Source of the DNA: Clostridium ljungdahlii
GTDB taxonomy: Bacteria > Bacillota > Clostridia > Clostridiales > Clostridiaceae
Direction of reading: 5' to 3'
Assembly (NCBI RefSeq): GCF_001636845.1
Contig: NZ_LITT01000035.1
Span: forward strand, 186,001-250,000
Length of the DNA: 64,000 bases
The translations under genes and the position numbers were made by a program. Positions 2,327 to 60,742 of this stretch are shown here, piece after piece (within the stretch, counting starts at the first letter, position 1; the number at the start of each line of letters is the position of its first letter). Under the pieces are notes generated by a model, which saw only the letters and a list, made by a program, of their open reading frames with translations, was not told where the DNA came from and did no database searches.

Positions 2327-2375
2327 TATAGGGTTTTCTAACTTAAAAATCAACTTATACGCAGGCATACTTTTA
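2327..2375 (-). repeat. R1 repeat fragment (R1-A, one end only)
   Basis: Starts with TATAGGG and continues through the R1 end arm AAAATCAACTTATAC and the following GCAGGCATA, as in full copies R1-H and R1-I, then departs from the family. It is a truncated R1 end lying beyond the terminator of the serine hydrolase gene. Confidence 0.7.
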
Positions 2376-4556: not shown

Positions 4557-4654
4557 ATATGTATCCTCTAACTTAAAAATCAACTTATACTTCGATATTT
4601 TTAATTATTAAAAATATCCCAAGTATAAGTTGATTTTTCTTTGGAAACTCTATA
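4557..4654. repeat. R1 mini-repeat (R1-B)
   Basis: Both R1 ends are present: arm 4575-4592 pairs perfectly over 18 bases with 4621-4638. The long interior and the conserved loop are replaced by a 25-base AT palindrome (4594-4618). It ends four bases after the nitroreductase stop codon and would form a hairpin at that gene's 3' end. Confidence 0.8.
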
Positions 4655-4658
4655 AATT

Positions 4659-5216
4659 TTACTTAGAAAATATTAAAGGTTTTTTTCTTTCTGGTGGAGT
4701 CAATTTAGTTTTCATATATCCCATGCTCATGGTAGAAACCAATTCATACTTTTCAGGTACCCCATGTTTTTCTTTAAATTCTTTTGTATTTAATAGAGCC
4801 TCTGCAAATCCAATCCAGCAAGTTCCAATTCCCATGCTGTGAGCTGCAAGCATAATATTTCCTGCTGCAAGACTGCAGTCATAAACATGCCAGTGAGATT
4901 CTTTATTTCCGTAAATAACTAGTACTGTACCTGCATTATTAAATATATTATATTTAGGATTCTTCAACCAACTTTCATATTGACTTAAGTAGGGATATTT
5001 TTCAATATTGTTCAATAAATACTGTTTCGTAGTTTCAGATAAAGAATCTATTTCACCTTTGTCCTGAATAACTACAAATCCCCATGGTTCAAGACCTGAT
5101 CCAGTTGAAGCTTTTGTTCCAAGCTCTATAAGATTAGTTATAGTTTCTTTAGATATTACTTCATCTGTATATGCTCGAACACTCCTTTTACCGTTAATGC
5201 ATTCTAAAACTTCCAT
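4659..5216 (-). CDS. Nitroreductase family protein (FMN-dependent)
   Basis: 185 residues, a normal size for small nitroreductase-family flavoproteins. The N-terminus (ECINGKRSVRAYTDE) matches the family's FMN-binding R-S-x-R region. Further on come EPWGFVV (a substrate-pocket region) and the C-terminal GIGTCWIGFAEA glycine motif that binds FMN. Such enzymes reduce nitro compounds or quinones with NAD(P)H, or serve as dehydrogenases. The natural substrate is unknown. It is monocistronic with its own promoter; the 3' end carries the R1-B hairpin. Confidence 0.88.
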   Translation of the reverse strand: MEVLECINGKRSVRAYTDEVISKETITNLIELGTKASTGSGLEPWGFVVIQDKGEIDSLSETTKQYLLNNIEKYPYLSQYESWLKNPKYNIFNNAGTVLVIYGNKESHWHVYDCSLAAGNIMLAAHSMGIGTCWIGFAEALLNTKEFKEKHGVPEKYELVSTMSMGYMKTKLTPPERKKPLIFSK

Positions 5217-13234: not shown

Positions 13235-13321
13235 AAAATCCTCCAAAAAACATTAATATTTATATTATTAATATGAAGAATACTACAATTATGTTAAAAT
13301 GTTTAGAAATTCTATCATCTC

Positions 13322-13579
13322 TATAGAATTCCTAATTAAAAGTTAACTTATACAAATCATATTTTTACAATAGCGAAGCTCTTTTAAATATTTTGCATAT
13401 AAGACTTAGTAAAAAATTCGTAAAAAAATCTAAGGACTTTCGAATTGTTTGAGGTACGAGTTTTCAAAAGTCCTTAGATTTTAGAATTGTTTACTTAGCC
13501 TTATCAAAATATTTAATCGAGCTGAGGATTGTAAAAAATATGTGGAGTATACGTTGATTTTTTGCTTAGAACCCCCATA
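13322..13579 (-). repeat. R1 long-hairpin repeat, copy R1-C
   Basis: The 13235-13579 gap is filled by one R1 element from TATAG to the complement of TATGGG. The left half pairs with the right half along almost the whole length, leaving the loop TTGTTTGAGGTACGAG around 13446-13460. It ends immediately before the stop codon of the 1431-residue gene. On that gene's strand the loop reads CTCGTACCTCAAAC, the sense orientation used here. Confidence 0.88.
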
Positions 13580-16500
13580 TTATTTGGTTCCACTTTGAGC
13601 AAGTGCTGCTTGAGGTACTAATTTCTCTTTTGGTTTTTGGACTGAAGTTTCATTTTCCATAGATTTAAAGGCCACAGACAGCATGAGTTTTAATCTATTT
13701 AACTGATTTACTTCACTTGCTCCTGGATCATAATCTATAGCAGCAATATTACTTCCCTTGTATCTTCTCTTTAATTCCTTTATCATTCCCTTACCTGTTA
13801 CATGGTTAGGCAGACATGCAAAAGGCTGCATACATACGATATTTTTAGTTCCACTTCTTATAAGTTCTATCATTTCAGCTGTCAAGAACCAACCTTCACC
13901 AGTTTGATTTCCTATAGAAAGTACTTTAGAAGCATACTTCGCCAGTTCTTCAATGTCTGATGGTGGAGTGAACTTTTTACTATTTTCAAGAGCTTTTCTC
14001 ATATGCCTTCTAAAATATTCGATACATTTAATTGCCCATTTATTTACAATATTGTCCTTATAACTTCCATCCAAATATTTGTATTTGAATTCAGCATCAT
14101 AAGCACAGTACAAAAGAAAATCTGTCAAGTCCGGAACTACTGCTTCTGCACCTTCTTTTTCCAAAACATCTACAATATTGTTATTAGCTGTAGGGTGGAA
14201 TTTAACTAATATCTCCCCTACTACTCCAACTCTAGGCTTTTTAACTTTATTTAATTCAAGATTGTCAAAGTCTTCTACTATGCTGTATATATTTTTCTTA
14301 AATTGGCTGTGACTTCCATTTCTAACATTTTCCTTGCACTTATCAACCCAATTTTTATAAAGTGTATTTGCAGATTCCGGTATCTTTTCATACGGCCTTA
14401 CCTTATACAACACTCTCATAAATAAGTCTCCGTATAAAAGTGCCATCATGGATTTATTTACAAGTCCTAGAGTAATTTTAAATCCTGGATTTTTTTCTAA
14501 TCCCACTGTATTTACAGATATTACAGGTATATTTTCCATACCAGCTTCTCTAAGCGCCTTTCTTAAGAAACCTATATAGTTTGTAGCCCTGCATCCTCCC
14601 CCTGTTTGAGAAATTATTAAAGAGGTATTATTTAAGTCATATTTCCCAGATTTTAATGCTTCTATCATTTGTCCCACTACTATTATGGAAGGATAGCAGG
14701 CATCGTTATTTACATATTTAAGTCCCTCATCTACTGCTTTCTTATCTACAGAAGGTAGTACCTCCAGGTTATATCCAGATGCTTTAAAAGCTTCCTGCAG
14801 AAATTGAAAATGTATAGGTGACATCTGTGGACAAAGTATAGTATGCTTTTTCCTCATTTCTTCAGTAAACAGTACTTTTTTATAATCAGTTCCAACTTTA
14901 TGAGGTTTAAAACCAGATTTATCTCTCTCTTCAATAGCTGCCTTAAGAGAACGCATTCTTATTTTAACAGCCCCTAAATTACTACCCTCATCAATTTTAA
15001 GTACTGTATATATCTTTCCGTATTTATTTAATATTTCCTGAGTTTGATCTGTAGTTACTGCATCTAATCCACAGCCAAAGGAATTTAATTGTACAAGTTC
15101 TATATTGTCCTGTTTAGCTACAAAACTTGCTGCAGCATATAATCTAGAATGATATACCCACTGATCTACTACCCTTAAAGGTCTTTCTACTACTCCAAGG
15201 TGTGCCACAGAATCCTCAGTCAAAACTGCCATACCGTAAGATGTTATTATGTTAGGTATACCATGATTTATTTCTGGATCAATATGGTAAGGTCTTCCTG
15301 CAAGTACTATGCCCTTTTTACCTGTATCTTTAAGATATTTTATTACTTCTTCACCTTTTGACCTTATATCATTTTTTACATTTCTACTCTCTTCAAAAGC
15401 TTTTGCCACTGCAGAAGATATTTCCTTTTGAGGTATATTAAACTCTTTAAGTTCTTCTCCAAGTCTCTCTGCGAGCTTTGGCTCGTTATTCAAAGACAAG
15501 AATGGATTTTTAAAATTGATATCTTTCTCCTTTAGTATATCCATATTGTTTTTTATAACTTCAGGATAAGATGTTACTATAGGACAGTTATAGTTATTAT
15601 CTGCCTTTTCTTGTTCTTTTTTCTCATAAGGTATACATGGATAGAATATAAAATTTACTCCTCTATTTATAAGATCCATTATATGTCCGTGGACCATCTT
15701 CCCAGGATAGCAAACTGACTCAGAAGGTATTGTTTCTATTCCAAGTTCGTAAATTCTCTTTGACGAACGGGAAGATATTTCTACTCTAAATCCTAGCGCG
15801 GTGAAAAATGTAAACCAAAATGGATAATTTTCGTATAAATTTAACACTCGAGGTATCCCTACTATCCCTCTTTTTGCTTCGCCCTTTTTAAGCGGAATGT
15901 AATTAAATATTCTTTTGTACTTATAGGCAAAAATATCAGGTACATCTTGACTTTTACGCTCTAATCCTGCACCTCTTTCGCACCTGTTTCCAGATATAAA
16001 CTCTTTTCCGTCGGAAAACTTGTTTATAGTCAAAAGACAGTTGTTAGCACACTTTCCACATCTTCTCATAGATACTTCTGATGTAAAATTACCTAGTTCA
16101 TTTTCACTTAAAAGTGTACTTTCACACCCAGCCTGATATCTTTCCTTTGCAATAATTGCAGATCCAAAAGCTCCCATAAGACCTGCTATATCAGGTCTTA
16201 CTACTTCCCTGCCAGATATGATTTCAAAGGCTCTAAGTACAGCATCATTATAAAAAGTTCCTCCTTGTACTATTACCTTTTCTCCAAATTCTTTTGAATT
16301 TCTCATCTTTATTACTTTAAATAAAGCATTCTTTATAATTGAATAAGAAAGTCCTGCAGATATATCTCCTACTGAAGCTCCTTCTTTTTGAGCTTGTTTA
16401 ACTCTCGAATTCATAAATACAGTACACCTGGAACCCAAATCCACAGGTTTTTGAGAAGTTTCTGCAGCTTTTGCAAAATCTTCTACACTCATATTAAGTG

Positions 16501-17875
16501 ATTTAGCAAAAGTCTCCAAGAAAGATCCACATCCGGATGAACAAGCTTCATTTAAAATTACGCTGTCAATTACCTTGTCCTTAACTTTCAAGCATTTCAT
16601 ATCCTGTCCACCAATATCCAGTATAAAATCTACTCCAGGCTGGAAAAATTCTGCTGCCTTATAGTGGGCAATAGTTTCAACTTCACCTACATCTACATGC
16701 AGTGCTGCTTTTATAAGATTTTCTCCATAGCCTGTAACTGCTGAACTTACTATATGTGCACCTTCAGGCATCTTTTTATATAGATCCTTTAATATTCTTA
16801 CAGACGACTTTAAAGGGCTGCCTTCATTACCCTTGTAGAAAGAATAAAGTAAATTTCCTTCTTCATCTATGAGTGCCGCCTTAGTCGTAGTTGAGCCTGC
16901 ATCTATTCCAAGATAACAGCTTCCTCTAAATGTATTCAAATTTGCTCTTTTTACCACACTGGTACTGTGTCTTTTCTTAAATTCATTTAATTCGTTCTCA
17001 TCTTTAAATAATGGCCTTATGGTTTGTATTTCATCTGCTGAAGAATTGCTTAAATTAGGAAGCCTGTCTACTAAATCTTCAGCAGAGATAACTTTTCTAT
17101 TTTTAGAAGAAATAGCTGCTCCAAGTGCTACAAACAATTGAGGATTTTCAGGAAAAATCACCTGCTTATCCGTAAGCTTTAAAGTTTCTATAAATCTTTT
17201 TCTAAGTTCTGATAAAAAATACAGTGGTCCACCTAGAAATGCCACATTACCTTTTATAACTTTTCCGCAAGCAAGTCCACTTATTGTCTGATTTACAACT
17301 GATTGAAATACAGATACTGCAATATCTTCTTTTGCAGCTCCCTCATTTAAAAGAGGTTGTATATCAGTTTTGGCAAATACACCACACCTTGCTGCTATAG
17401 GATAAATCACTTTGTAATTTTTAGCTAATTCATTTAGTCCCTGCGCATCTGTTTGAAGAAGAGATGCCATTTGGTCTATAAATGCGCCCGTTCCACCTGC
17501 ACAAGTTCCATTCATTCTTTGATCAATTCCACCATCAAAAAAGGTTATCTTGGCATCTTCACCGCCTAATTCTATTGCCACATCCGTCTCCGGTATAAAT
17601 TGTTCTATAGTATTAGTACAAGCTACTACTTCTTGAATAAACGGTATGTCAAGCCACTTAGATACAGATAACCCACCTGAACCCGTAACCATTACAGTGA
17701 TATTTGAATCCTTTAATTTTTCATAGGCGTCTTTAATAACTTTAGCTATAGTACTTTTTATATCAGAAAAATGTCTTTGGTATTTATGATATACTATACT
17801 ATCTTTAATATCTGATATAACTATTTTTACTGTAGTTGAACCTACATCAAGACCTACATGAAATAAATTTTTCAT
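13580..17875 (-). CDS. Acyl-CoA dehydratase activase-related fusion protein (two BadF-type ATPase domains, DUF2229, dehydratase-like C-terminus)
   Basis: 1431 residues from ATG 17875 (SD AAAGGTG; a TTG at 17881 is rejected). Two ASKHA ATPase domains come first, each beginning with a DxGSTT-type loop (about 1-260 and 318-600). Each has the two cysteines that hold a dimer-bridging [4Fe-4S] cluster in HgdC ([14 protein letters not shown] and [16 protein letters not shown]). A Cys-rich linker (CGKCANNC, near 605) follows, then DUF2229 (about 665-880) and a region resembling dehydratase or double-cubane subunits (about 1010-1380). This is a known large clostridial architecture of undetermined reaction, presumably ATP-driven low-potential electron transfer. 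It is monocistronic; R1-C lies at its 3' end. Confidence 0.88.
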
Positions 17876-18332
17876 AAGCAATCACCTTTTAATAAAATAA
17901 TAATTTGAAATTGTACATTGATATTGTAATATATTTTCACTTAATAATAAACAGGAAATAATAGCTTTTATCCATATGCTTTATAGTATGTGCCATCACA
18001 ACCCATATTTAGAAAATAATTCTACGAATATGCCGCATAGTTACAATACAATTTGGATTTAAACTGTGTTCAAACCTAATTCAGTAATTATATTATAACA
18101 CATGTTACCCCTTAATTAATTTTAAGTTTAAAATACTACCATAATATAAATTGATATGTGAGTATTTTCATAGTTATGTGTTGAATTTTGTGCTGTTATA
18201 GTTTTTGCGTCAGGAACAATAAATTACGAGCCTTCATATAATAAATCATAGTCTGTAATAAGACTTTTGAAAGAAAATGCTTAAGTCTAATGAATGCCAA
18301 TTAATAACTGTAAACTGGCGGGAGATGATATT
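17876..18332. other. Intergenic region, no recognised gene or riboswitch
   Basis: A 457-base divergent spacer between the fusion protein and the SsuB-like gene. It is AT-rich with several TATAAT-like boxes but no convincing promoter pair. I checked for a TPP or other thiamine-type leader, suggested by the transporter family, and found none. Confidence 0.6.
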
Positions 18333-19091
18333 TTGAGTAAATTAACAGTAAAAGATGTATTTATGAACTACCATTCACTTAAAGGATTTACTAAAGCCTT
18401 GACTGATATAAACTTTTCTGTAGAAGAAGGAGAATTTTTAAGCATAGTAGGTCCATCAGGCTGCGGAAAAACTACACTTTTAAATATAATAGCAGGTCTT
18501 ATAAAACCTTCTTGTGGTGAAATATTTATAGACAATGAACCCTTAGCTTCTGCTTCCTCAAAACTTGGATATATGTTTCAAAGAGATCACCTATTTGAAT
18601 GGTCCAGCGTGTGGAACAATATAACTCTTGGTATAAGAATACAACATAAATCACCAGACTTATACAAAGACAAGTTAACTTCTCTACTTAAAAATTATGG
18701 TCTCATAGACTTTGTAAATTATTACCCGGATGAACTATCGGGGGGTATGCGTCAAAAGGTTGCCTTAATAAGAACTCTTGCCCTAAATCCTGAAGTTCTA
18801 CTTTTAGATGAACCCTTCTCAGCACTGGATTATCAAACTAGATTAAATATAAGCGATGAAATATTTAAAATATTGAAGAAGGAAGGGAAAACAGTAATAA
18901 TGGTAACTCACGATATAGCAGAGGCTATATCTATGTCAAATAGAATAGTAGTACTTTCAAAAAGACCTGCTAAAATTAAAAAAATATTTGATATAACTTT
19001 CAGTGAATCTTATAATTCTCCTTTAAAATGCAGAGAAGATCCAGAATTTAGAATTTACTTTAACAGCATATGGAAGGAGTTGAATTATTAA
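18333..19091 (+). CDS. ABC transporter ATP-binding protein, SsuB/TauB/NrtD type
   Basis: 252 residues from TTG 18333, with SD GGGAG eight bases upstream; an ATG at 18294 in frame has no SD and adds 13 unmatched residues. Walker A GPSGCGKTT, Q-loop MFQRDHLFEW, signature LSGGMRQKV, Walker B VLLLDEPFSALD and H-loop VTHDIAEA are all present, as in nitrate/sulfonate/taurine importers. It overlaps the permease start (TAATG). No intact binding-protein gene is adjacent, which is unusual for an importer. Confidence 0.92.
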   Translation: MSKLTVKDVFMNYHSLKGFTKALTDINFSVEEGEFLSIVGPSGCGKTTLLNIIAGLIKPSCGEIFIDNEPLASASSKLGYMFQRDHLFEWSSVWNNITLGIRIQHKSPDLYKDKLTSLLKNYGLIDFVNYYPDELSGGMRQKVALIRTLALNPEVLLLDEPFSALDYQTRLNISDEIFKILKKEGKTVIMVTHDIAEAISMSNRIVVLSKRPAKIKKIFDITFSESYNSPLKCREDPEFRIYFNSIWKELNY

Positions 19092-19894
19092 TGCTGGATT
19101 ACAACAAGGAACACCAAATATATATAAACAATATAGTAACTAGAAAGAAGAAAGTCATATTAAGCAGAATCATAATTTTAATAGCTTTTTTTGCATTATG
19201 GGAAATAGCAGGCGACCTTGGATGGGTAGATCCTTTTCTAACCAGTACACCCTCTAGAATGTGGAAAAACCTTATAAAACTCTATGCAGAAGGAACTCTA
19301 TTTAGACATATTGGCATAACTTGTTATGAAACTATACTGGGATTTTTACTTAGCACAGTTCTTGGAACTATAATTGCCATACTTCTCTGGTGGTCTGACT
19401 TCATTTCAGATGTACTTGACCCTTATATAGTTGTACTAAATGCACTTCCTAAAATTGCCTTAGCACCTATAATAATATTTTGGGCAGGAAATGGTATGTC
19501 AACTATCATTGTAATCACCATATTAATTTCTGTAATTGTGACCATAATAAACGTATTTCATGGATTTAAAACTGTAGATAGAGATAAAATCAGGCTTCTA
19601 AAAACTTTTGGAGCTTCAAAGCTGCAAATTCTCACCTATCTTATAATACCTTCTTCGGTACCTACTTTAATATCTGCTCTAAAAATAAACGTAGGCCTGT
19701 CCTGGGTAGGTGTAATAATGGGAGAATTTCTGGTAGCAAAAGAAGGCCTTGGTTTCTTAATAATATACGGAGGCCAAATATCACAGTTAGATACAGTAAT
19801 GGTCAGCATAATCATACTTTCAATTTTAGCTTACCTAATGTACAGAGCAGTAGAGTTTGCAGAAAAAAAGCTTACAAAAATAATGCTTCATTAA
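19091..19894 (+). CDS. ABC transporter permease, SsuC/TauC type
   Basis: 267 residues from ATG 19091, which overlaps the ATPase TAA; SD AAGGAG lies upstream inside the ATPase gene. There are about six membrane spans and the importer EAA-loop region around FKTVDRDKIRLLKTFGAS. It belongs to the BPD_transp_1 family for sulfonate, nitrate or pyrimidine-precursor import. It is followed eight bases after the stop by R1-D. The substrate is unknown; the only binding protein in view is the fragment at 12953-13234. Confidence 0.92.
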   Translation: MLDYNKEHQIYINNIVTRKKKVILSRIIILIAFFALWEIAGDLGWVDPFLTSTPSRMWKNLIKLYAEGTLFRHIGITCYETILGFLLSTVLGTIIAILLWWSDFISDVLDPYIVVLNALPKIALAPIIIFWAGNGMSTIIVITILISVIVTIINVFHGFKTVDRDKIRLLKTFGASKLQILTYLIIPSSVPTLISALKINVGLSWVGVIMGEFLVAKEGLGFLIIYGGQISQLDTVMVSIIILSILAYLMYRAVEFAEKKLTKIMLH

Positions 19895-19902
19895 ATTACA
19901 AG

Positions 19903-20083
19903 ATTGTAAATTAAATCAACTTATTTCCATAATGTTTTTATAACCTTCAATCCATTAAATATTTTAATAAACCTAAGGTTTGGCATTTTGAAAATCTAAG
20001 AATTTTATCTAAGCTCGTACTTCAAACATATTTAATTTTCTAAGGTTTTCCAAAATGCCTTACATAGTTGATTCTCAAATAGT
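19903..20083 (+). repeat. R1 long-hairpin repeat, copy R1-D (short, diverged)
   Basis: Arms around ATTAAATCAAC (19910-19920) and GTTGATTCT (20067-20075), inner arms TTTGGCATTTTGAAAATC and TTTTCCAAAATGCC, and loop CTCGTACTTCAAAC. It is shorter than other copies and has one loop change. It is sense-oriented relative to the permease gene that ends at 19894. Confidence 0.78.
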
Positions 20084-28198: not shown

Positions 28199-28768
28199 AT
28201 GTCTAAAATATTTTTTAAAGGCAGTTGTATGCTGAATCCTGTACCTTCAGTACTTATAACTTCAAAAAGTAAAAATAGCGATATAAATGTGTTCACTGCT
28301 GCCTGGGTAGGTAATGCGTGTACCAAACCCCCTATGATTACTATAGCCATAAAACCAGAAAGATTGTCTTATAAATACATAAAAGAGACAATGGAATTTG
28401 CAGTAAACCTTCCTTCTAGAAATTTAACCAGAATTGTAGATTTATGCGGTGTAAAATCTGGCAGAGACTTTAATAAAATAAAAGAATGTAAATTAGAATT
28501 AGAAAAAAGCGAAAAAATATCCGTTCCTTGTATTAAAGAATGTGCTGTTAACATGGAATGCAAGGTTAAAAGCATAATTCCTCTTGGAAGCCATCATTTA
28601 TTTATAGCTGAAATTTTATCAGTTCATGTAGATGAAAATCTAATAGACAATAAGGGTAAAATACATTTAGAAAAAGCTGATCTCATATGTTATTCTCACG
28701 GAGAATACTTTCCTATAAATTCAAAGCCTCTAGGCAAATTCGGATTTTCAGTAAAAAAGAAGAGGTAG
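28199..28768 (+). CDS. Flavin reductase-like / flavoredoxin family protein
   Basis: 189 residues of the FMN-binding split-barrel flavin reductase-like family: VFTAAWVGNACTKPPMITIAI near the start (the family's T-x-x-W-x-x region) and EFAVNLPS in the middle. Such proteins carry FMN and move electrons from ferredoxins or reduce flavins. The gene is single with a normal SD (AAAGGAG). R1-E begins 13 bases after its stop. Confidence 0.88.
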   Translation: MSKIFFKGSCMLNPVPSVLITSKSKNSDINVFTAAWVGNACTKPPMITIAIKPERLSYKYIKETMEFAVNLPSRNLTRIVDLCGVKSGRDFNKIKECKLELEKSEKISVPCIKECAVNMECKVKSIIPLGSHHLFIAEILSVHVDENLIDNKGKIHLEKADLICYSHGEYFPINSKPLGKFGFSVKKKR

Positions 28769-28781
28769 TTTTAAATTAAAA

Positions 28782-29042
28782 TACAGAGTTTCTAAGTAGA
28801 AAGTTAACTTATACCAGCCATATACTAACAAATTTCATCACACTAAAAACTTTTTATAAGTCTAAAGCTCGGTATTTTGAAAATCTAAATAAGCTTATAT
28901 AAACTCGTACCTCAAACATATATAGGCTTCTAAGATTTTCTAAAATACCTCACTAAGACTTATAAAAAAAGTTTTTAAATGTGATTTCAATTTTGTTAGT
29001 ATATTTTATGTATAAGTTAACTTTTATATTAAAAACCCTATA
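28782..29042 (+). repeat. R1 long-hairpin repeat, copy R1-E
   Basis: The left arm AAAGTTAACTTATAC pairs perfectly with GTATAAGTTAACTTT at the right end. Inner arms include AAACTTTTTATAAGTCT with GACTTATAAAAAAAGTTTT. The loop is AACTCGTACCTCAAACATAT. It is sense-oriented after the flavin reductase gene. Its terminal TATA is shared with the first bases of R1-F. Confidence 0.9.
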
Positions 29043-29299
29043 AGTATTCTAACTTAAAAATCAATTTATACGCAGGAATATTTTTACAATAATGAAGCTC
29101 TTTTAAATATTTTGTATATAAGTCTTAGAAAAAAATTTTTAAAAAATCTAGAACTTTTGAATTGTTTGAGGTACGAGTTTTCGAAAGTTCTTAGTTTTTT
29201 TAGAACTTTTTATCTAGACTTATCAAAATATTTAACCGGACTTGTGTTTGTAAAAAATGTTCGAAGTATAGATTTATTTTCCCTTAAAATACCTACATA
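29039..29299 (-). repeat. R1 long-hairpin repeat, copy R1-F
   Basis: Starts TATAAGTATTCTAAC and ends at the complement of TGTAGGTATTTTAAGG, six bases from the ybaK stop. On the plus strand the loop is GTTTGAGGTACGAG, so it is sense-oriented relative to ybaK. A 62-codon open frame inside it is not conserved in other copies and is not called as a gene. Confidence 0.88.
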
Positions 29300-29305
29300 G
29301 ATATT

Positions 29306-29764
29306 TTATTCTCCTACATCTACCCATTCTCCTTTTGTAAGCTCACTTATTTCTGATGGACTTATTTTAAGTGCATATTCTTTAGATCCTGCTGCAGGAT
29401 AAACATAATCGAAGTCCTTTATTGAATCGTCCAAATAAATTTTAATATTATTTTTTAATCCAAAAGGACACAGGCCTCCCACAGGATGACCTGTAATTTG
29501 GAGCACCTCATCATGATCTAGCATTTTTGCCTTGATTTTAAAATTCTTTTTAAATTTCTTATTGCTTACTCTAAGATCTCCTCTCATAACTATGAGTATA
29601 TCCTCATCTTTAAGCTTAAATGCTAGAGTCTTTGCTATATACTTAGGATCTGTATGTATAGTCTCCGCAGCCTCTTGAACAGTTGCTCCACTTGACTCCA
29701 ACTTAAATACTGGATTTTCCAATCCCTTCTCTAAAAAATAATTAACTACATTTTCTACACTCAT
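29306..29764 (-). CDS. YbaK/EbsC family aminoacyl-tRNA deacylase
   Basis: 152 residues, a complete YbaK domain: AKTLAFKLKDEDILIVMRGD with the catalytic lysine region, GHPVGGLCPFGL, and PAAGSKEYALKISPSE. The family hydrolyses mischarged Cys-tRNA(Pro) or related aminoacyl-tRNAs. SD GGAGGG is seven bases from ATG. An R2 repeat and a SAM riboswitch with terminator lie directly upstream on the same strand, so sulfur supply may control it; this link is inferred from position only. Confidence 0.9.
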   Translation of the reverse strand: MSVENVVNYFLEKGLENPVFKLESSGATVQEAAETIHTDPKYIAKTLAFKLKDEDILIVMRGDLRVSNKKFKKNFKIKAKMLDHDEVLQITGHPVGGLCPFGLKNNIKIYLDDSIKDFDYVYPAAGSKEYALKISPSEISELTKGEWVDVGE

Positions 29765-29782
29765 ATTTTTATCCCTCCATTT

Positions 29783-30006
29783 TTTGTCTGATGACTACCT
29801 ACTGTAACACTCCTGCTTCTATCAAAGTGGGAGGTAACAGTAGCTACGCCCCTAGATAATTCATCTAAGCTTAGTGAGATACGTAAAACTCTAAAGAGAA
29901 AGCGACTATCATCAAATCAAAGATTTGGGATATCTGCTTGCACACAGCGAAAGCGACTATCACCAAATCAAAGATTTGGGATATCTGCTTTTCCCACTAA
30001 GTAAGA
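29783..30006 (-). repeat. R2 structured repeat, copy R2-2 (with 51-bp tandem hairpins)
   Basis: On the minus strand the element begins GAATCTTACTTAGTGGG and carries two 42-base hairpin units at a 51-base period (29949-29990 and 29898-29939). It ends with the R2 core: TTATCT (29859-29854), CTACTGT..ACAGTAG stem, GTAGTCATC, and TGTCT closing strand at 29785. It lies exactly between the SAM-riboswitch terminator and the ybaK SD. Confidence 0.75.
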
Positions 30007-30018
30007 TTCATTGATACT

Positions 30019-30056
30019 CAAAAAAATCTTCCTGTAGATAAGCCTACAGGAAGATT
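30019..30056 (-). terminator. Terminator of the SAM riboswitch expression platform
   Basis: Minus strand: AATCTTCCTGTAG (after the loop) pairs with its upstream complement (30043-30056) over about 13 bases and is followed by a T run. It begins about 14 bases after the aptamer. Confidence 0.9.
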
Positions 30057-30069
30057 AATATTCTTCCAC

Positions 30070-30170
30070 TTCTTATCTTTCAGGTAATACCTGCTGGAAT
30101 TGGCACCGTTGGATTACATCCAGGTTGCCGGGCTTCATAGGGCCAGTCCCTCAGCCGCTCTTGATAAGAA
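30070..30170 (-). promoter_or_regulatory. SAM-I riboswitch (S-box) aptamer
   Basis: Minus strand: CTTATCAAGAG opens the aptamer and GATAAG closes P1. Conserved blocks follow in order: GGGACTGGCCC, ATGAAGCCCGGCAACC, and GGTGCCAATTCC, then AGCAGG. This is the full S-box consensus. A terminator follows, so SAM should switch transcription off. The next gene on this strand is ybaK, after an R2 element. Confidence 0.95.
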
Positions 30171-30190
30171 CTTATTATTTAATTTAATAA

Positions 30191-30219
30191 ATTGTAGCAA
30201 ACTGCTAATTATTTGTCAA
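30191..30219 (-). promoter_or_regulatory. Promoter of the SAM riboswitch transcript
   Basis: Minus-strand TTGACA (30219-30214), 17-base spacer, TACAAT (30196-30191); transcription would start about 15 bases before the aptamer. Confidence 0.8.
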
Positions 30220-30270
30220 CATGTTTTCATCAATTTAACTTATAAAAATAAAACATTCAACACACTTATT

Positions 30271-30735
30271 TTACAATAATTTTTCAACCTGCACATCATA
30301 ACTTCCATCAGGAGATGCCACAGTTGCCTTTTGACCTACTTTTAGTTTATAAAGTGCCTTTCCTAAAGGAGACTCTATACTTATCTTCATATTTTTAACA
30401 TCTGCTTCTACTGTACTAACTAAGGTAACTTCTTCAGTTTCATCTACGTCACAAAACTTTACTAATGCGGTTTTATTTATATCAAATACATCTGCTTCTG
30501 AAGAACTCTCTATTATTACTGCATTTTTGAGCTGAGTTTCAAGTTCCTGTATTCTAGTCTCAGTCATAGATTGATCATCTTTTGCAGCATCATAATCTGC
30601 ATTTTCACTTAAATCACCTTGTGCACGTGCTGCTTTCAACGCTAACTTGATTTCTACTCTTTTAACTGTTTTTAAATATTCTAATTCATCTTCTAACTTT
30701 TTTTTACCTGATTCTGTAAGAATCACATCTTGCAT
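30271..30735 (-). CDS. greA: Transcription elongation factor GreA
   Basis: 154 residues from ATG 30735; a GTG at 30748-30750 overlaps the SD. The N-terminal coiled coil (TESGKKKLEDELEYLK ... DLSENADYDAAKDDQS) holds the acidic tip that enters the RNA polymerase secondary channel. The C-terminal FKBP-like domain contains SPLGKALYKLKVGQ. GreA stimulates cleavage of backtracked transcripts. The length is standard. The short R2-3 element occupies its 5' leader. Confidence 0.95.
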   Translation of the reverse strand: MQDVILTESGKKKLEDELEYLKTVKRVEIKLALKAARAQGDLSENADYDAAKDDQSMTETRIQELETQLKNAVIIESSSEADVFDINKTALVKFCDVDETEEVTLVSTVEADVKNMKISIESPLGKALYKLKVGQKATVASPDGSYDVQVEKLL

Positions 30736-30759
30736 AAAAAAATCACCCACTATTCTAAA

Positions 30760-30812
30760 TTTTATCTGATGGCTACCTACTTTAACACTTCCACTAAGTA
30801 AGATTCCTTGAT
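30760..30812 (-). repeat. R2 repeat, short deletion copy R2-3
   Basis: Minus strand: GAATCTTACTTAGTGG, the left end seen in R2-2, runs straight into AAGTGTTAAAGTAGG, the right part of the core, ending GGTAGCCATCAGATAAAA. An AGTGG present at both places suggests deletion by microhomology. It lies in the greA leader, 24 bases before ATG. Confidence 0.7.
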
Positions 30813-30991
30813 AAAGCTTTGCTGCGAAACTTGATAAATTTTGTATAAGTTTAATAGCTTTTATACATTTATTTACTTTACTATTTTATTATAATATTAC
30901 TAATTAAATAATACAAGTTAAATGATGAAATCGCTTATTATACATACTATTTAAGTCCATATTCCGCAAATAATATGACGTTAAGATCATA

Positions 30992-31021
30992 TTGACATTA
31001 AAATATTTATCATTATATAAT
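30992..31021 (+). promoter_or_regulatory. Promoter of the yitT leader
   Basis: TTGACA (30992-30997), 18-base spacer, TATAAT (31016-31021), about 155 bases before the gene. Confidence 0.75.
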
Positions 31022-31027
31022 ATTATT

Positions 31028-31122
31028 GGAAGTAAATTTTAAAAGACATTCTCACAATGAATTTGTGTGTAATGAGAGCATATAAATCTAAGAATTCTTA
31101 CTTGGGTTTTATGTGCTTTTTT
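31028..31122 (+). ncRNA. Structured leader or small RNA before a yitT-family gene
   Basis: The leader first forms TCTCACAA..TTGTG..TGAGA, then a rho-independent terminator: AGCATATAAA/TTTATGTGCT extended by TCTAAG/CTTGGG, followed by seven T (31112-31122). There is no ORF. It could be an attenuator or riboswitch of an unrecognised class controlling the YitT gene, or a free small RNA. It does not match riboswitch consensus sequences I know. Confidence 0.55.
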
Positions 31123-31175
31123 TGATGAATAAACTATGAAATTAAATAGAAATTATATATAGGAGGCTTTTACTT

Positions 31176-32024
31176 ATGAAAATAAATTTGAAAGATATTT
31201 TTCTTATACTAGTAGGTTCACTTTTCGTAGCTTTTGGCACTTATTTTTTTCTAGCTCCAAATCATATAGCAGCTGGAGGAACAAGCGGTATCGCCATAAT
31301 TATAAACAGTATATTTCCAAGTATTCCAATAGGTCTTTTAATGATGGGCATGGAAGTTATACTTTTTACCATTGGTATAATTGTAATAGGACCTGTGTTT
31401 GGTGGTAAAACCATATTTTGTAGTTTTTCTATATCTGCTCTTGTACTTTTAATGGGAAAAATATATCCTAATATAAAGCCTTTCAGCAATGATACTTTAA
31501 TTCAACTTATATTAGGCATACTCATATGTGGATTAGGTATGGGAATTGTATTTAACTTAAACGCCTCTACTGGTGGGACAGATATAATTGCAAAAATAAT
31601 AAACAAATATACTCAAATAAGCATAGGCAAATCTATTCTAATGGCAGATATCGCAATAACTATAGCAGCAACCCTAATACTTGGAGTAAGTAAAGGAATG
31701 TATGCGATTCTTGGAGTAATATTGAATTCTACTATAATTGATAAAGTTATATTAAGTTTGAACTCCTATAAGCAAGTTGCTATAATAAGTAACAATGGTG
31801 AAAATATAAAAAAATATATTGTAAATGAGCTATCTAGAAGTGCAACTATCTATTACGCCAAAGGAGCCTATAAAAATAGCAATAAAGAAGTTATAACCAC
31901 CATTTTAGATAGGAAACAGTTTTTAAAGTTAAAAAATTATATAAAAGTTTTAGATGACAAGGCCTTTATTACTGTAAATGATGTAAATGAAGTACTAGGA
32001 GAAGGATTTACTCGTATAATATAA
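31176..32024 (+). CDS. YitT family membrane protein (DUF161 plus DUF2179)
   Basis: 282 residues. Five membrane spans occupy the first ~195 residues, with family motifs FLAPNHIAAGGTSGIAII and NLNASTGGTDIIAKII. The C-terminal DUF2179 domain (about 205-280) ends VNDVNEVLGEGF. The function of YitT proteins is not established. SD AGGAGG is 10 bases upstream. The upstream leader contains a terminator, so expression is probably conditional. A second family member lies at the right edge of the window. Confidence 0.92.
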   Translation: MKINLKDIFLILVGSLFVAFGTYFFLAPNHIAAGGTSGIAIIINSIFPSIPIGLLMMGMEVILFTIGIIVIGPVFGGKTIFCSFSISALVLLMGKIYPNIKPFSNDTLIQLILGILICGLGMGIVFNLNASTGGTDIIAKIINKYTQISIGKSILMADIAITIAATLILGVSKGMYAILGVILNSTIIDKVILSLNSYKQVAIISNNGENIKKYIVNELSRSATIYYAKGAYKNSNKEVITTILDRKQFLKLKNYIKVLDDKAFITVNDVNEVLGEGFTRII

Positions 32025-32124
32025 AAAACTGTGTAGTTTTTTATATTTAATTTTCATTGTAGAATAATAATCCAACTCTTGGTAATAATTTAAATTAGTA
32101 CTTAAACTAGAGGAGGATGTAAAA

Positions 32125-32769
32125 ATGGCACTGCCAAATCACATAGGTATAATTCCAGATGGAAACAGGCGCTGGGCAGTTAAAAGAGGGTTAAGTAAAG
32201 AAAAAGGATATAATTTTGGTCTAAAACCTGGAATAGAATTATTTAAATTATGTGAAAAATTAGGGATAAATGAATTAACCTATTATGGATTCACTACAGA
32301 TAATACTAAAAGACCATCAATCCAGACCAAAGCCTTCACCAAAGCTTGTACAGAAGCTGTAAAAATACTTTCAAAAGAAAATGCTTCTCTTTTGGTAGTT
32401 GGAAATTCTGACTCTCCTATGTTTCCAAAAGAACTTCTTCCTTACATGGTTAGAAAAGACTTCGGTAAAGGGGGAATAAAGGTTAATTTTTTAGTAAATT
32501 ACGGATGGGAATGGGACTTAGGTAAAACTAAAAATTTATCAACTACAAATAGACATTCCGTTATATCCAGTCTAAATTCCCACGATATATCAAGAGTAGA
32601 TTTAATAATAAGATGGGGTGGTAGAAGAAGACTCAGCGGATTTTTACCAGTTCAATCTGTATATTCAGATTTTTACATAATAGATGACTATTGGCCTGAT
32701 TTTAAAATGGAACATTTAATGCATGCTCTAAAATGGTATAATGACCAGGATATAACTTTGGGTGGCTAA
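32125..32769 (+). CDS. Cis-prenyltransferase (undecaprenyl diphosphate synthase family)
   Basis: 214 residues. The N-terminal HIGIIPDGNRRWA is the isoprenyl-diphosphate binding loop with catalytic aspartate, and the C-terminal IIRWGGRRRLSGFLPVQSVYSDF contains the family's R-x-G-G-x-x-R-x-S-x-F signature. It is shorter than typical UppS (~250), lacking part of the middle region, and is not in the usual cdsA-frr cluster. It may therefore be a specialised prenyl synthase rather than the housekeeping enzyme. SD GAGGAGG. R1-G starts 17 bases after the stop. Confidence 0.87.
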   Translation: MALPNHIGIIPDGNRRWAVKRGLSKEKGYNFGLKPGIELFKLCEKLGINELTYYGFTTDNTKRPSIQTKAFTKACTEAVKILSKENASLLVVGNSDSPMFPKELLPYMVRKDFGKGGIKVNFLVNYGWEWDLGKTKNLSTTNRHSVISSLNSHDISRVDLIIRWGGRRRLSGFLPVQSVYSDFYIIDDYWPDFKMEHLMHALKWYNDQDITLGG

Positions 32770-32786
32770 TTTTCTCCCAATTTAAA

Positions 32787-33045
32787 TATAGGGTTTCTAG
32801 ATTGAAAGTTACCTTATACAAAGCATGTAATGACAAATTTTAGCACCATAAAAACTTTTGACAAGTCTAAAGCTTGGCATTTGGAAAATCTAAGGACCTT
32901 AGATAAACTCGTACCTCAAACATATCTAAGCTCCTAAGATTTTCTAAAATGCCTCGCTAAGACTTATAGAAAAGTTTTTAAAGGTGCTTTCAATTTTGTC
33001 ATTACATTTTATGTATAAGTTTAAATTTCAATTAGAAGTCCTATA
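32787..33045 (+). repeat. R1 long-hairpin repeat, copy R1-G
   Basis: From TATAGGGTTTCTAG to the complement TATAGGACTTCTAAT. Arms pair through AAGTCTAAAGCTTGGCATTT with the right half; loop AACTCGTACCTCAAACATAT. It is sense-oriented after the prenyltransferase gene. With R1-H it fills most of the 750-base gap to the next gene. Confidence 0.88.
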
Positions 33046-33057
33046 TAGATTTAGATT

Positions 33058-33315
33058 TATATGAGCACTCTAACTTAAAAATCAACTTATATGCAGGCAT
33101 ATTTTTACAATAATGAAGTTCTTTTAAATTTTTGTATATAAGTCTTAGAAAAAAATTCGTAAAAACTTAGAACCTTTGAATTGTTTGAGGTACGAGTTTT
33201 CAAAAGTTCTTAGGTTTTTTAGAATTTTTTACTTAGACTTACCCAAATATTTAACGAGCTGAAGATTGTAAAAATATCCGGAGTATAAGTTGATTTTTTA
33301 CTTAGAATACCTATA
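33058..33315 (-). repeat. R1 long-hairpin repeat, copy R1-H
   Basis: End arms AAAAATCAACTTATA and TATAAGTTGATTTTT are perfect complements; loop GTTTGAGGTACGAG on the plus strand. It is the only full copy that does not directly follow a gene in sense orientation. It lies 12 bases after R1-G, in the same plus/minus arrangement as the E-F pair. Confidence 0.88.
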
Positions 33316-33430
33316 ATCATATTTATTCAACTTACATATAATAAATTGTGTGTTTATTTTCCTATCATTTAGCTTATATTGAAGTCAATTTTCTTTATCA
33401 ATTGAGAATACATATCGAAGTAGTTTTCTA

Positions 33431-33465
33431 TTGACTTATAATGATTTTTGTCCTATTATAATAGG
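33431..33465 (+). promoter_or_regulatory. Promoter with operator-like palindrome before the CDF gene
   Basis: TTGACT (33431-33436), 17-base spacer, TATTAT (33454-33459). A perfect 14-base palindrome CCTATTATAATAGG (33452-33465) covers the -10 box, which suggests a repressor site, perhaps metal-responsive. Confidence 0.6.
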
Positions 33466-33518
33466 TATTAGTTCTTATCACTTGATAACTGCTAAATTTT
33501 AGAGGAGATGTTTTTTAA

Positions 33519-34427
33519 ATGGATGAAAAAGTAAAGACAGCAAGACTTTCTATAATTTCTAATACATGTTTAATAACTATGAAGTTAATAGTTGGGATAA
33601 TTACAGGATCAGTTAGTATCCTATCAGAAGCCATACATTCAACTATGGATTTAATTGCAGCTATAATATCGTTTTTTTCTGTTAAAATATCATCCAAGCC
33701 TGCAGATGCAGAGCATCCTTACGGGCACGGTAAGTTCGAAAATGTATCTGGTGTAATTGAAGCACTGCTTATATTTTCTGCATCTGTATGGATAATAGTA
33801 GAAGCTATAAAAAAGATAGTAAGCGGAGGAGAAGTAGCTTCGTCCAGTCTAGGATTTTTTGTTATGTTTTTTTCTGCTGCAATAAACTCTTTAGTATCCA
33901 AAAGATTATATAAAGTAGCTAAAAAAACTGACTCTATTGCTTTAGAAGCAGATGCCCTTCATCTTAAAACAGATGTATATACTTCCCTTGGAGTTGGCAT
34001 AGGGCTTTTTCTAATATGGATTACAAAACTGCATTTTCTAGATCCTGTAATAGCCGTAATTGTAGCTTTATTTATTTTAAAGGAAGCTTTATGTCTGTTA
34101 AAAAAAGCTTTTAATCCATTAGTAGATGTAAAATTATCTGATAAGGAAATCAGCATTGTAAAAGATTGTATATCTAAATACAGTTCCGGATATTGCAGTT
34201 TCCACAGATTAAGAACTAGGAAATCTGGGAATAAAAGATATGTAGATGTGCATTTAGTATTTCCTGAAGATATGCATATAAAGGTTGCTCATAAATTATG
34301 TGATGACATAGAAAATGAAATGAGTCACTCACTTCAAAATACGGAAGTAATGATTCATCTGGAATCCTGTGACGATAAATGTACTGGCTGTAGACTTGCT
34401 GATACAACAAAATGCAAAAATAGATAG
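33519..34427 (+). CDS. Cation diffusion facilitator (CDF) family transporter
   Basis: 302 residues, six membrane spans in the first ~200. The metal-site aspartates are in STMDLIAAIISF (span 2) and in the EADALHLKTDVYTSLGV segment (span 5, with the HxxxD arrangement). The cytoplasmic C-terminal domain (about 205-285) is ferredoxin-like. The final ~20 residues are cysteine-rich (ESCDDKCTGCRLADTTKC), an unusual tail that may sense metal. It probably exports divalent metal (Zn, Mn, Fe or Co) by proton antiport. Confidence 0.93.
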   Translation: MDEKVKTARLSIISNTCLITMKLIVGIITGSVSILSEAIHSTMDLIAAIISFFSVKISSKPADAEHPYGHGKFENVSGVIEALLIFSASVWIIVEAIKKIVSGGEVASSSLGFFVMFFSAAINSLVSKRLYKVAKKTDSIALEADALHLKTDVYTSLGVGIGLFLIWITKLHFLDPVIAVIVALFILKEALCLLKKAFNPLVDVKLSDKEISIVKDCISKYSSGYCSFHRLRTRKSGNKRYVDVHLVFPEDMHIKVAHKLCDDIENEMSHSLQNTEVMIHLESCDDKCTGCRLADTTKCKNR

Positions 34428-47315: not shown

Positions 47316-48605
47316 CTATGCAGTTTCAGGGCCCTTTCGTGTTCTTGATTTTTTTAATTTAATAGGCGTCCTCTTTCCATCCTCTGCCTCTATAAGTTCT
47401 GGCTTCTTTGTATCCACTGCATTCTTATCAATTATTACTTTAGCTATTTCCTCTTTTGAAGGTATATCAAACATTACATCCTTCATAGTTTCCTCTATAA
47501 TAGCTCTCAGTCCTCTAGCTCCTGTATTTCTCTTTAATGCTTCATCTGATATAGCTTCTAGTGCATCTTCTTTAAATTCAAGTTCCACATCATCAAATTC
47601 AAAGAGCTTTTTATACTGTTTAACCAGCGCATTTTTAGGTTCCTTTAATATTCTTACAAGAGCACTCCTGTCTAATGCCTCCAAAGTTACTATAATAGGA
47701 ATTCTACCTACAAATTCTGGTATAAGTCCAAACTTTAGAAGATCTCCAGGCATTATATCTTTTAAAAGTTTTCCTATGTCTTTTTCCTTTTTAGATTGTA
47801 TTTCTGCACCAAAACCTAAAGTACTTACTCTAGTTCTACGTTCTATTATATTGTCTATACCATCAAAAGCTCCACCGCATATAAATAATATATTTGTAGT
47901 ATTTATTTGAATAAATTCTTGATGCGGATGTTTTCTACCACCTTGAGGTGGCACTGAAGCTACTGTACCTTCTAATATCTTTAACAGTGCCTGCTGTACG
48001 CCTTCTCCTGAAACATCTCTAGTTATAGATGGATTTTCTGACTTTCTTGCTATTTTATCTATCTCATCTATATATACTATTCCATGTTCAGCTCTTTCTA
48101 TGTCATAGTCTGCATTTTGTATAAGCTTTAACAATATATTTTCTACGTCTTCACCTACATAGCCAGCTTCTGTTAAAGTAGTCGCATCTGCAATAGCAAA
48201 AGGTACATTTAAAAATTTTGCTAAAGTTTGAGCTAACAATGTTTTTCCTGATCCCGTAGGACCAAGTAATAATATATTACTTTTTTGAAGTTCCACATCA
48301 TCATTTTGATTATTTGAATTTATTCTCTTATAGTGATTATACACTGCTACAGACAGTGATTTTTTTGCATCTTCCTGACCTATTACATATTGATCAAGGT
48401 AATTTTTTATTTCTACAGGTTTAGGTATAGAAGTCATATCTATTTGAACATCTTCTTCAAATTCATCACTTATTATTTCAGAACATAATTCTATACATTC
48501 ATCACATATATATACACCTGGTCCTGCAATTAATCTTCTAACTTGATCTTGTGTTTTACCGCAGAATGAGCATTTAAGTTGTTTTTTATCATCATTTTTG
48601 GCCAT
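47316..48605 (-). CDS. clpX: ATP-dependent Clp protease ATP-binding subunit ClpX
   Basis: 429 residues from ATG 48605 (a GTG at 48611 overlaps the SD). The N-terminal C4 zinc domain (CSFCG ... CDECIELC) recruits substrates. An AAA+ domain with [19 protein letters not shown], sensor and pore loops ([14 protein letters not shown]) follows. ClpX unfolds proteins for ClpP, whose gene lies 20 bases upstream in the same transcript. Confidence 0.97.
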
Positions 48606-60201: not shown

Positions 60202-60475
60202 TACATATTCCCCCTTAACTCTAGATATTATAACATTTAATTTTATGATATCACATTTAACTCTATACGCTTATTTGATTTGCAAATAGTTGGATCAACG
60301 ACTATAACATGTTTTTATACATGTTTTCTATATTGAAAATTGTCTTATACCAAATCGCATAATAACAATTTTGAATTGGTATCCCTATAGTGTTACTCTG
60401 AAAAATATACATATATGTAACAATTTAAATTTTATGTTTAACATAGTATGGCAGCTGTTTTAATTTATAATCGAA

Positions 60476-60733
60476 TATAGAATTTATAACTTAAAAATGA
60501 GCTTATGCGCAGGCATATTTTTACAGTAATGAAGCCATTTAAATATTTTGTATATAAGTCGTAGGAAAAAATTCGTAAAAAATATAGAACTTTTGAATTG
60601 TTTGAGGTATGAGTTTTCAAAAGTTCTTAAATTTTTTAAAATTTTTTGCTTAGACTTATCAAAATATTTAACCGAGCTGAAGATTGTAAAAAATATTCGG
60701 AGTATAAGCTCATTTTTACTTAGAAACTCTATA
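60476..60733 (-). repeat. R1 long-hairpin repeat, copy R1-I
   Basis: Fills most of the 541-base gap between the 419-residue gene and the MFS gene. End arms AAAAATGAGCTTATG and TATAAGCTCATTTTT differ from other copies at three places yet still pair. Loop GTTTGAGGTATGAG has one change. Sense-oriented relative to the MFS gene, ending nine bases from its stop. A 96-codon frame across it is not a gene. Confidence 0.87.
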
Positions 60734-60742
60734 AAAGTATAT

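Follow-up and report, generated by a model that had tools for sequence, protein, structure and literature searches.

R1, a likely IS630-type MITE of Clostridium ljungdahlii with a conserved core that probably folds on one strand

Integron attC sites form hairpins just behind a stop codon, in which the folded, active strand is the opposite of the coding strand, and their hallmarks are RYYYAAC...GTTRRRY boxes and a partner integrase. The R1 repeats of Clostridium ljungdahlii, the subject of this report, share with this general picture of attC a hairpin behind a stop in which the non-coding strand appears to fold; the likeness is one of geometry, and R1, unlike attC, occurs as dispersed single or twin copies on the chromosome. 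Closer in kind is RUP of Streptococcus pneumoniae, a MITE of IS630-Spn1 that serves as a precedent for R1: both are non-coding, present in approximately 100 copies, and bear TA ends and terminal inverted repeats (TIRs) matching a resident IS630-family insertion sequence (IS), while the sections of the source that describe RUP give a length of 107 bp and report no DNA motif (PMC2229807). R1, in contrast, is mostly ~258 bp long in its long copies, carries a hairpin tip that is found in multiple phyla, and is oriented with respect to gene ends. The Correia/NEMIS elements of Neisseria, covered in part by the same source, are also MITEs with TA termini, whose transcripts form long stem-loops (PMC2229807); features described for them include an IHF site (in the longer form) and an RNase III target, the comparison with R1 being one between descriptions. 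IS630 elements themselves insert at TA and duplicate it, according to the relevant section of PMC2170065. Finally, the REP/BIME palindromes of REPtrons resemble R1 in lying downstream of genes, often as opposed pairs, and RAYT proteins act on the REP single strand, as outlined in sections of PMC3733652 and PMC12306157; REPs, however, measure 20-40 bp and carry a GTAG or CGTC end, the GTAG ones with a RAYT partner, whereas R1 is long and shows no tie to RAYT.

The DNA analysed here, referred to as the window, is a stretch of 64,000 nt from contig C24 of the C. ljungdahlii genome G000 (further labels beginning with C and L denote contigs and loci). A previous reading of the window, made from the letters alone (the sequence-only reading), had presented R1 as a new-looking family with no named counterpart, and as far as Rfam is concerned this stands: at gathering cut-offs the window yields only SAM and PyrR, neither on an R1 copy, and 20 loci from other genera yield no match. 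At E <=1, seven loci give five matches, to an S10 leader, a T-box, a bglG element and two weak miRNA models. Literature searches that covered R1 loop strings, Clostridium palindromes and MITEs, repeats of C. autoethanogenum and C. ljungdahlii, and Correia, RUP and IS630 did not find R1, and the main text of PMC10969869, in the part considered, names neither Clostridi- nor IS630. Two candidate identities were set aside: intrastrand triplex DNA, for which the part of the main text of PMC4666352 considered does not mention Clostridium, and the Clostridium stem-loop families of PMC2267715, which at the 31-93 bp given in the relevant part of that source are not R1.

Loop counts, folding and blastn between them recover everything that the sequence-only reading had picked out: seven long copies, a mini copy and a fragment. 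The loop, GTTTGAGGTACGAG, has seven matches in the window at up to two mismatches, against 0.06 expected by chance, and these are the seven long copies; a blastn search of the contig with the 43 loop-bearing G000 copies and the mini copy as queries (the window's own copies being among them) yields 19 R1 elements, ten elsewhere on the contig and nine inside the window, with extents 2326-2375, 4557-4659, 13317-13582, 19893-20064, 28777-29046, 29037-29300, 32783-33047, 33058-33318, and 60473-60735. The long copies measure 181-261 nt, have mostly TATAG-type ends, and belong to two subtypes, A (at 28782, 32787 and 19903, all on the - strand) and B (at 29039, 33058, 13322 and 60476, on the + strand), whose likeness lies mainly at the tip, with few mosaics. 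The type A copy at 28782..29042 (-), identified by sequence and blastn and folding at -102.4 kcal/mol, lies with its 3' end (the low coordinate) 14 nt from where the + ORF 28199-28768 stops; it is fused, via a common TATA, to the 5' end of the type B copy at 29039..29299 (+; identified by sequence, fold and blastn), which completes the twin and whose 3' end is 7 nt away from the stop of the - ORF 29306-29764. A second twin consists of the type A copy at 32787..33045 (-), with ORF 32125-32769 ending 18 nt from its 3' end, and the type B copy at 33058..33315 (+), the sole copy of the window whose 3' end abuts no listed stop. Among the remaining long copies, type B at 13322..13579 (+) abuts, by its 3' end, the end of the - ORF 13580-17881; the shortened, type A-like copy at 19903..20083 (-), with one loop change (GTTTGAAGTACGAG), has its 3' end 9 nt away from the stop of ORF 19070-19894; and type B at 60476..60733 (+), also with one loop change (GTTTGAGGTATGAG), has the - ORF 60743-62005 ending 10 nt from its 3' end. 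The mini copy at 4557..4654 (+) has B-type ends, is devoid of core and loop, and lies with its 3' end 5 nt from where the - ORF 4659-5216 stops, and the fragment at 2327..2375 (+) consists of a B-type 5' end only. No ORF of 100 aa, the minimum length considered, lies within the R1 copies of the window. The view that R1 folds end to end into one hairpin holds over nearly the whole length of six long copies, but not for the 19903 copy, which forms a hairpin with an extra side stem.

Other features lie close to these copies. Window positions 29782-30027 match dispersed sites in the related genomes G003 and G005 (e.g., at 95% and 93% identity), and represent a second repeat family beside R1. The stretch 29458-30010 is present in G000 and absent from G003 and G005, where ORF 29306-29764 is cut or removed; a SAM riboswitch (30170-30070, -) and a terminator-like site (30056-30025) adjoin the junction of this stretch. 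A promoter-like TTGATT-16-TATAAT (10/12) at 33290-33317 is directed outward from the B copy at its 3' end, such matches being near chance frequency here. Elsewhere on the contig, C24:44333-44458 and 47723-47854 of G000 are ~125-131 bp of extra sequence with respect to G003, with abrupt alignment ends, and lie outside R1 matches.

Throughout G000, five pairs of exact-loop copies lie less than 400 bp apart, and all consist of A(-) followed by B(+), so that the 5' ends face each other and the 3' ends face away. In G005, which is very likely C. ragsdalei, the twin equivalent to 32787-33315 is inverted, as B(-)A(+), and at C24:95377 one mosaic copy in G000 corresponds to a full pair in G003; together these differences show the pairs to rearrange in place. 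In locus L056 (G005:C6), which contains the counterparts of window position 30927 and the 32787 twin, there are insertions with TTAATTGTGAATTA-like ends, another MITE-like family, one of which sits within an R1 copy. Very short R1 forms, with arm starts 18 bp apart, are found at G003:C1:1487796, 2584108 and 2939277 and at G000:C36:92149, and spacings of 47, 58-59, 86-87 and 110-111 likewise recur, representing either discrete deletion classes or self-spreading mini elements. As for an ORF-bearing copy with B-type ends, the arm-pair spacings, read by eye among those listed of the 96 matches in G003 and 111 in G000, are 18, 47, 58-59, 78, 86-87, 95, 110-111 or ~206-214, none of which is gene-sized.

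R1 in the window is likely an IS630-type MITE: it is a multi-copy element without long ORFs whose ends resemble the termini of an intact same-clade IS630. Matches to DDE_3 were obtained in 11 of the 27 genomes searched, and transposase genes lie beside R1 copies in G000, G005 and G151 (the latter being likely C. magnum, just as G165 and G136 are likely C. bowmanii and C. thailandense). The gene on contig C77 of G005 encodes an intact IS630 transposase of 320 aa (NF033545, 165.6 bits vs a cut-off of 100), and both ends of this element are R1-like, with a best score of 23 each that is reached in 0/2000 shuffles; in the same shuffles, which keep base composition only, the right end of the G151 IS resembles R1 at 0/2000 and the left end at 6/2000, and the ends of the G136 IS are no more like G000 R1 ends than expected by chance (486 and 93 of 2000). 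The IS630 genes of G151 and G136 are each split over two frames, and the G151 cases are not independent, because they are copies of one duplicated segment of more than 4 kb; the transposase remnants of G000 and of G005 C27 occupy one orthologous R1 site. At E 0.001 only a transposase fragment is found in G000 and no match in G003, and DDE_3 has no match in G019 or G084, though G019 has the youngest-looking copies. The stretch of G005 that holds the intact IS630 lacks the tip motif, so that R1 has not simply arisen from that IS by deletion, and no TATAG end is evident by eye in the g24 clostridia, Lachnospiraceae, Elusimicrobium and Bacteroidales groups. In view of these misfits, two claims are kept apart, one that R1 in the window is likely an IS630-type MITE, the other that its core may be a more widely distributed hairpin module with a putative reader of its own.

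With regard to mobility, presence and absence are seen at one orthologous site: the L064 element of G019 is missing from G084, where a single TA is found by eye, this one diverged site, with flanks of ~78-81% identity, being the single basis for a TA duplication. In G019 copies, TA flanks TAGGG ends. On C24, 11 of the 14 element sites can be compared with G003, in which ten are occupied, including one without copy 28782 (~35 other bases being present instead) and one with a pair in place of a single copy; at the sole unoccupied site, C24:264273, G003 has unrelated sequence of equal length, and none of the 11 comparable sites is a clean empty site between G000 and G003. R1 has TIRs of roughly the form TATAGGGTTT(N)~15TTAACTTATAC, as in same-clade IS630-family (Tc1/mariner-type) IS; it probably spread in trans into TA sites by means of such a transposase, and its copies would now be mostly fixed and decaying in C. 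ljungdahlii.

R1 is not peculiar to this strain, and copies occur in other strains and genera. The exact loop is found 43 times in G000 (0 for a reversed-pattern control), 34 times in G003, 37 times in G005 and once in G019, and is absent from 55 of the 59 genomes searched, G000 included. A covariance model of the kind that the sequence-only reading had proposed, built for the R1 core from 60 sequences and applied at E <= 1e-5, finds matches in nine of the 19 genomes searched: at least 88 in G000, at least 76 in G003, at least 86 in G005, and at least 123 in G019, where a number of young copies are nearly identical; the search gave no match in ten further genomes of the genus. Separately, G015 and G107 (genus g4) display 33 and 50 model matches, while the tip pattern finds none in them, and they may hold relatives with another tip. 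This pattern, ATGTYTGAG N2-8 CGAGTTTA, is present in 26 of the 194 genomes of the family and 7 of its 46 genera as tallied, its control giving at most one match per genome, and a scan of GTDB contigs yields at least 112 stretches, those listed including Lachnospiraceae, Mediterraneibacter, Elusimicrobium, Bacteroidales, Desulfurellaceae, and Stahlbacteria assemblies. The apex TTTGAG...CGAGTTT is shared by hairpins from other clostridia and from Lachnospiraceae, Elusimicrobia, Bacteroidales and Desulfurellaceae: most of 32 folded loci, nearly all outside Clostridium, form long hairpins. Loci L169, L190, L203 and L206 form no hairpin on folding and look like chance matches, and Saprospiraceae copies pair near the tip only, or not at all. 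Of 228 loop matches considered, 218 have arms that pair, and the other 10 were left out of later analyses. An asymmetric internal loop ~10 bp below the tip, with GTTAA or GTAAA facing A, is found in L108, L109, L110, L122, L123, L132, L140, L207 and L211, which belong to several clostridia, a Stahlbacteria and a Desulfurellaceae assembly.

What is conserved within this core differs from what had first been proposed, namely a nearly invariant 14-nt loop on variable stems. The stems do vary more: among C24 copies selected at up to three loop mismatches, loop and arm divergence are 0.024 vs 0.209 for type A (6 copies) and 0.067 vs 0.114 for type B (10 copies). The invariant tip columns of the 60-row alignment A1 arise by construction, because its rows were chosen by the tip motif, and an unbiased check on tip conservation is provided by recovery with the loop masked; among 52 matches extending to 40 nt or less from the position of the loop, the strict motif is present in 44, 4 have one change, and 4 are fragments without the loop. 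Near-invariance holds within the clade of G000, G003 and G005, whose loop is GTTTGAGGTACGAG with few changes, but not across taxa: G019 displays GTTTGAGCCTGCGAG, GTCTGAGTTTTACGAG and others, the g24 clostridia often have a GTTTGAGCGAYAGCGAG-like loop, and the loop proper ranges over GTA, CCTG, CGATAG, CGAAG and others. By contrast, plain GNA caps aside, all 42 non-redundant caps (80% clusters) keep a complementary closing pair (87 of 89 before reduction), the caps having been chosen by their TTTGAG / CGAGTTT collar. The stem covaries: the inner helix is 92% paired, and holds 151 double-changed cells vs 46.5 +/- 4.7 when shuffled and at most 62 when slid, for a structure derived from the same alignment. 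Retention of the closing pair, covariation and loop-blind recovery together indicate that the fixed part of R1 is not the loop itself but the TTTGAG / CGAGTTT collar, inside which a small hairpin varies.

A perfect palindrome can fold on either strand, and it is mutations that break the tie, because a G.T mismatch on one strand is A.C on the other. In R1 this asymmetry is evident, and points to the GTTTGAG strand as probably the one under selection to fold. On this strand, isolated mismatches comprise 280 G.T vs 157 A.C (p 4e-9), a count that includes the C. ragsdalei rows L225, L236, L239 and L248, as well as 212 A.G vs 94 C.T and 297 T.T vs 94 A.A; own-clade orthologues were left out of both the mismatch and the orientation counts. 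G.T exceeds A.C in all five groups, own A alone and own B alone not being significant. With one hairpin per 80% cluster, there are 120 G.T vs 66 A.C over 63 hairpins (36 hairpins vs 14, p 0.003), and it is in one of six settings, that of 70% clusters and 60-nt arms, that significance is lost (44 vs 22, p 0.12 by hairpin). The other Clostridium group yields 128 G.T vs 71 A.C over 69 hairpins, a set deduplicated for identity only and from which the four C. ragsdalei rows were left out; with them the figures are 129 vs 73.

The nature of the folded molecule, DNA or RNA, is suggested by the caps. Those of the form C-GNNA-G have a pyrimidine as third base in 10 of 12 non-redundant cases, unlike RNA GNRA. 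Caps with a pyrimidine in this position fit stable DNA loop classes, and this fit tilts the balance, short of proof, toward single-stranded DNA as the active form of the GTTTGAG hairpin. The main competing view is that the GTTTGAG strand is transcribed from the 5' side of R1 and folds as RNA, acting on the abutting gene as an antisense or protein-binding molecule. Covariation, the excess of G.T over A.C and the conserved apex would suit RNA as well as single-stranded DNA, and the orientation of R1 makes this strand antisense to the adjoining gene; however, the 280 isolated G.T stand beside 13,731 Watson-Crick cells, which is judged low for a selected RNA, the C-GNNA-G caps are mostly GNYA, no Rfam family matches at gathering cut-off, and promoter-like sites in 28600-33600 are near chance frequency (35 vs 28.0, sd 5.9). 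An RNA role is considered unlikely.

R1 is also oriented with its 3' end at stops. In the window, a convergent ORF end lies within 18 nt of the 3' end in seven of the eight copies that have one, the exception being 33058-33315. For G000 as a whole, stops of open frames of at least 70 codons were counted at 70-150 nt from the loop: of 45 copies, 30 have one on the 3' side and 2 have one on the 5' side, or 29:1 among discordant copies (p 6e-8). In other clostridia, for 65 copies from which named own-clade rows, including C. ragsdalei L225, L236, L239 and L248, were dropped, the 3' side has a stop at 60-150 nt in 43 and the 5' side in 10 (37:4 discordant, p 1e-7); with those four rows, the count is 47 vs 10 of 69 (41:4). 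Outside Clostridium, 6 vs 2 of 22 is not significant, and 17 vs 9 is found at 60-220 nt (p 0.057). The 40 copies of G019 give 21 vs 9 (p 0.012) at 80-150 nt and 32 vs 13 (p 0.0003) at 80-200 nt, and its 20 near-identical young copies 8 vs 2 (p 0.07) and 16 vs 4 (p 0.002) in the same ranges, so that the bias seems to arise early, though it is less tight. A copy bias toward one replication strand, considered separately, was not seen in G003, where it was counted by eye.

This location evokes the possibility that R1 is kept as a gene-end device, serving as a terminator, a stabiliser or a translation brake in the mRNA of the abutting gene. Many stops do lie within ~15 nt of the 3' end in G000 and its two close relatives, and E. 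coli REPs located up to 15 nt from a stop stall ribosomes, according to the portion of PMC12306157 concerned. Nevertheless, since the stop at the 3' end is convergent, the strand present in the mRNA of the abutting gene is not the GTTTGAG strand but the other, which the mismatches mark as not the folded one; orientation and strand result together leave the mRNA with the poorly folding strand and count against a simple role at mRNA 3' ends. A terminator scan of 28600-33600, moreover, finds three sites, of which none is in an R1 copy, and a gene-end function appears quite improbable.

An identity of R1 as a REP mobilised by a RAYT (Y1) tyrosine transposase is highly improbable: RAYT-like genes do exist in G000 and G005, and REPs too are mostly downstream of coding regions (in the part of PMC3733652 that treats them), but Y1_Tnp is absent from G003, G019 and 8 of the 14 other tip-pattern genomes (several of which are MAGs and may be incomplete), the RAYT gene of G000 and G005 adjoins a different palindrome, GGTGCCTGTCACC, and the length and ends of R1 are unlike those of a REP (a 20-40 nt palindrome with a GTAG foot), so that this identity was rejected on co-distribution and on the possession by the local RAYT of its own palindrome. 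It is of note that at 1240-2007 of both L275 and L276 a RAYT-like gene (182 aa) lies directly 3' of a long GGTGCCTGTCACC palindrome, a likely REPtron of the genus. A recurrent gene encoded in cis was also rejected: an all-against-all comparison of 991 ORFs of at least 80 aa from hairpin loci L138 and up gives 14 ORF groups common to at least three loci, none of which is recognisable as a transposase when one sequence is viewed per group.

As a whole, the observations are best explained by R1 being an IS630-type MITE with a conserved, strand-specific folded core, an account in which confidence is somewhat better than even. Between its ends would lie a core that either predates the IS630-type ends or is independent of them, in the form of a long imperfect hairpin whose tip consists of a small paired cap within the TTTGAG / CGAGTTT collar. 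Selection would keep this core folded on the GTTTGAG strand, which may act as a single-stranded DNA hairpin and be recognised by a putative enzyme during mobilisation or insertion. A broader proposal can be put forward only tentatively: the core could be a cross-phylum mobile DNA hairpin, recognised as a folded single strand by an enzyme that places it one way directly behind stops, that was captured here between IS630 ends to form a chimeric MITE. If this were true, the geometry of the core would be attC-like without integrons.

The assignment of R1 to a family is ordinary; its conserved, strand-specific and gene-end-oriented core is not. MITEs are usually viewed as ends plus filler, and in R1 it is the filler that holds the most conserved part, a core that recurs, with one folded strand probably under selection, in hairpins of several phyla with different-looking ends. 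R1 therefore provides a testable case for an enzyme that would read single-stranded hairpins, and its orientation behind stops, whose cause may lie in either process, offers a handle by which to separate insertion bias from selection. In three close clostridia, one of which is very likely the acetogen C. ragsdalei, between at least 76 and at least 88 places per genome are marked in this manner, many of them at gene ends.
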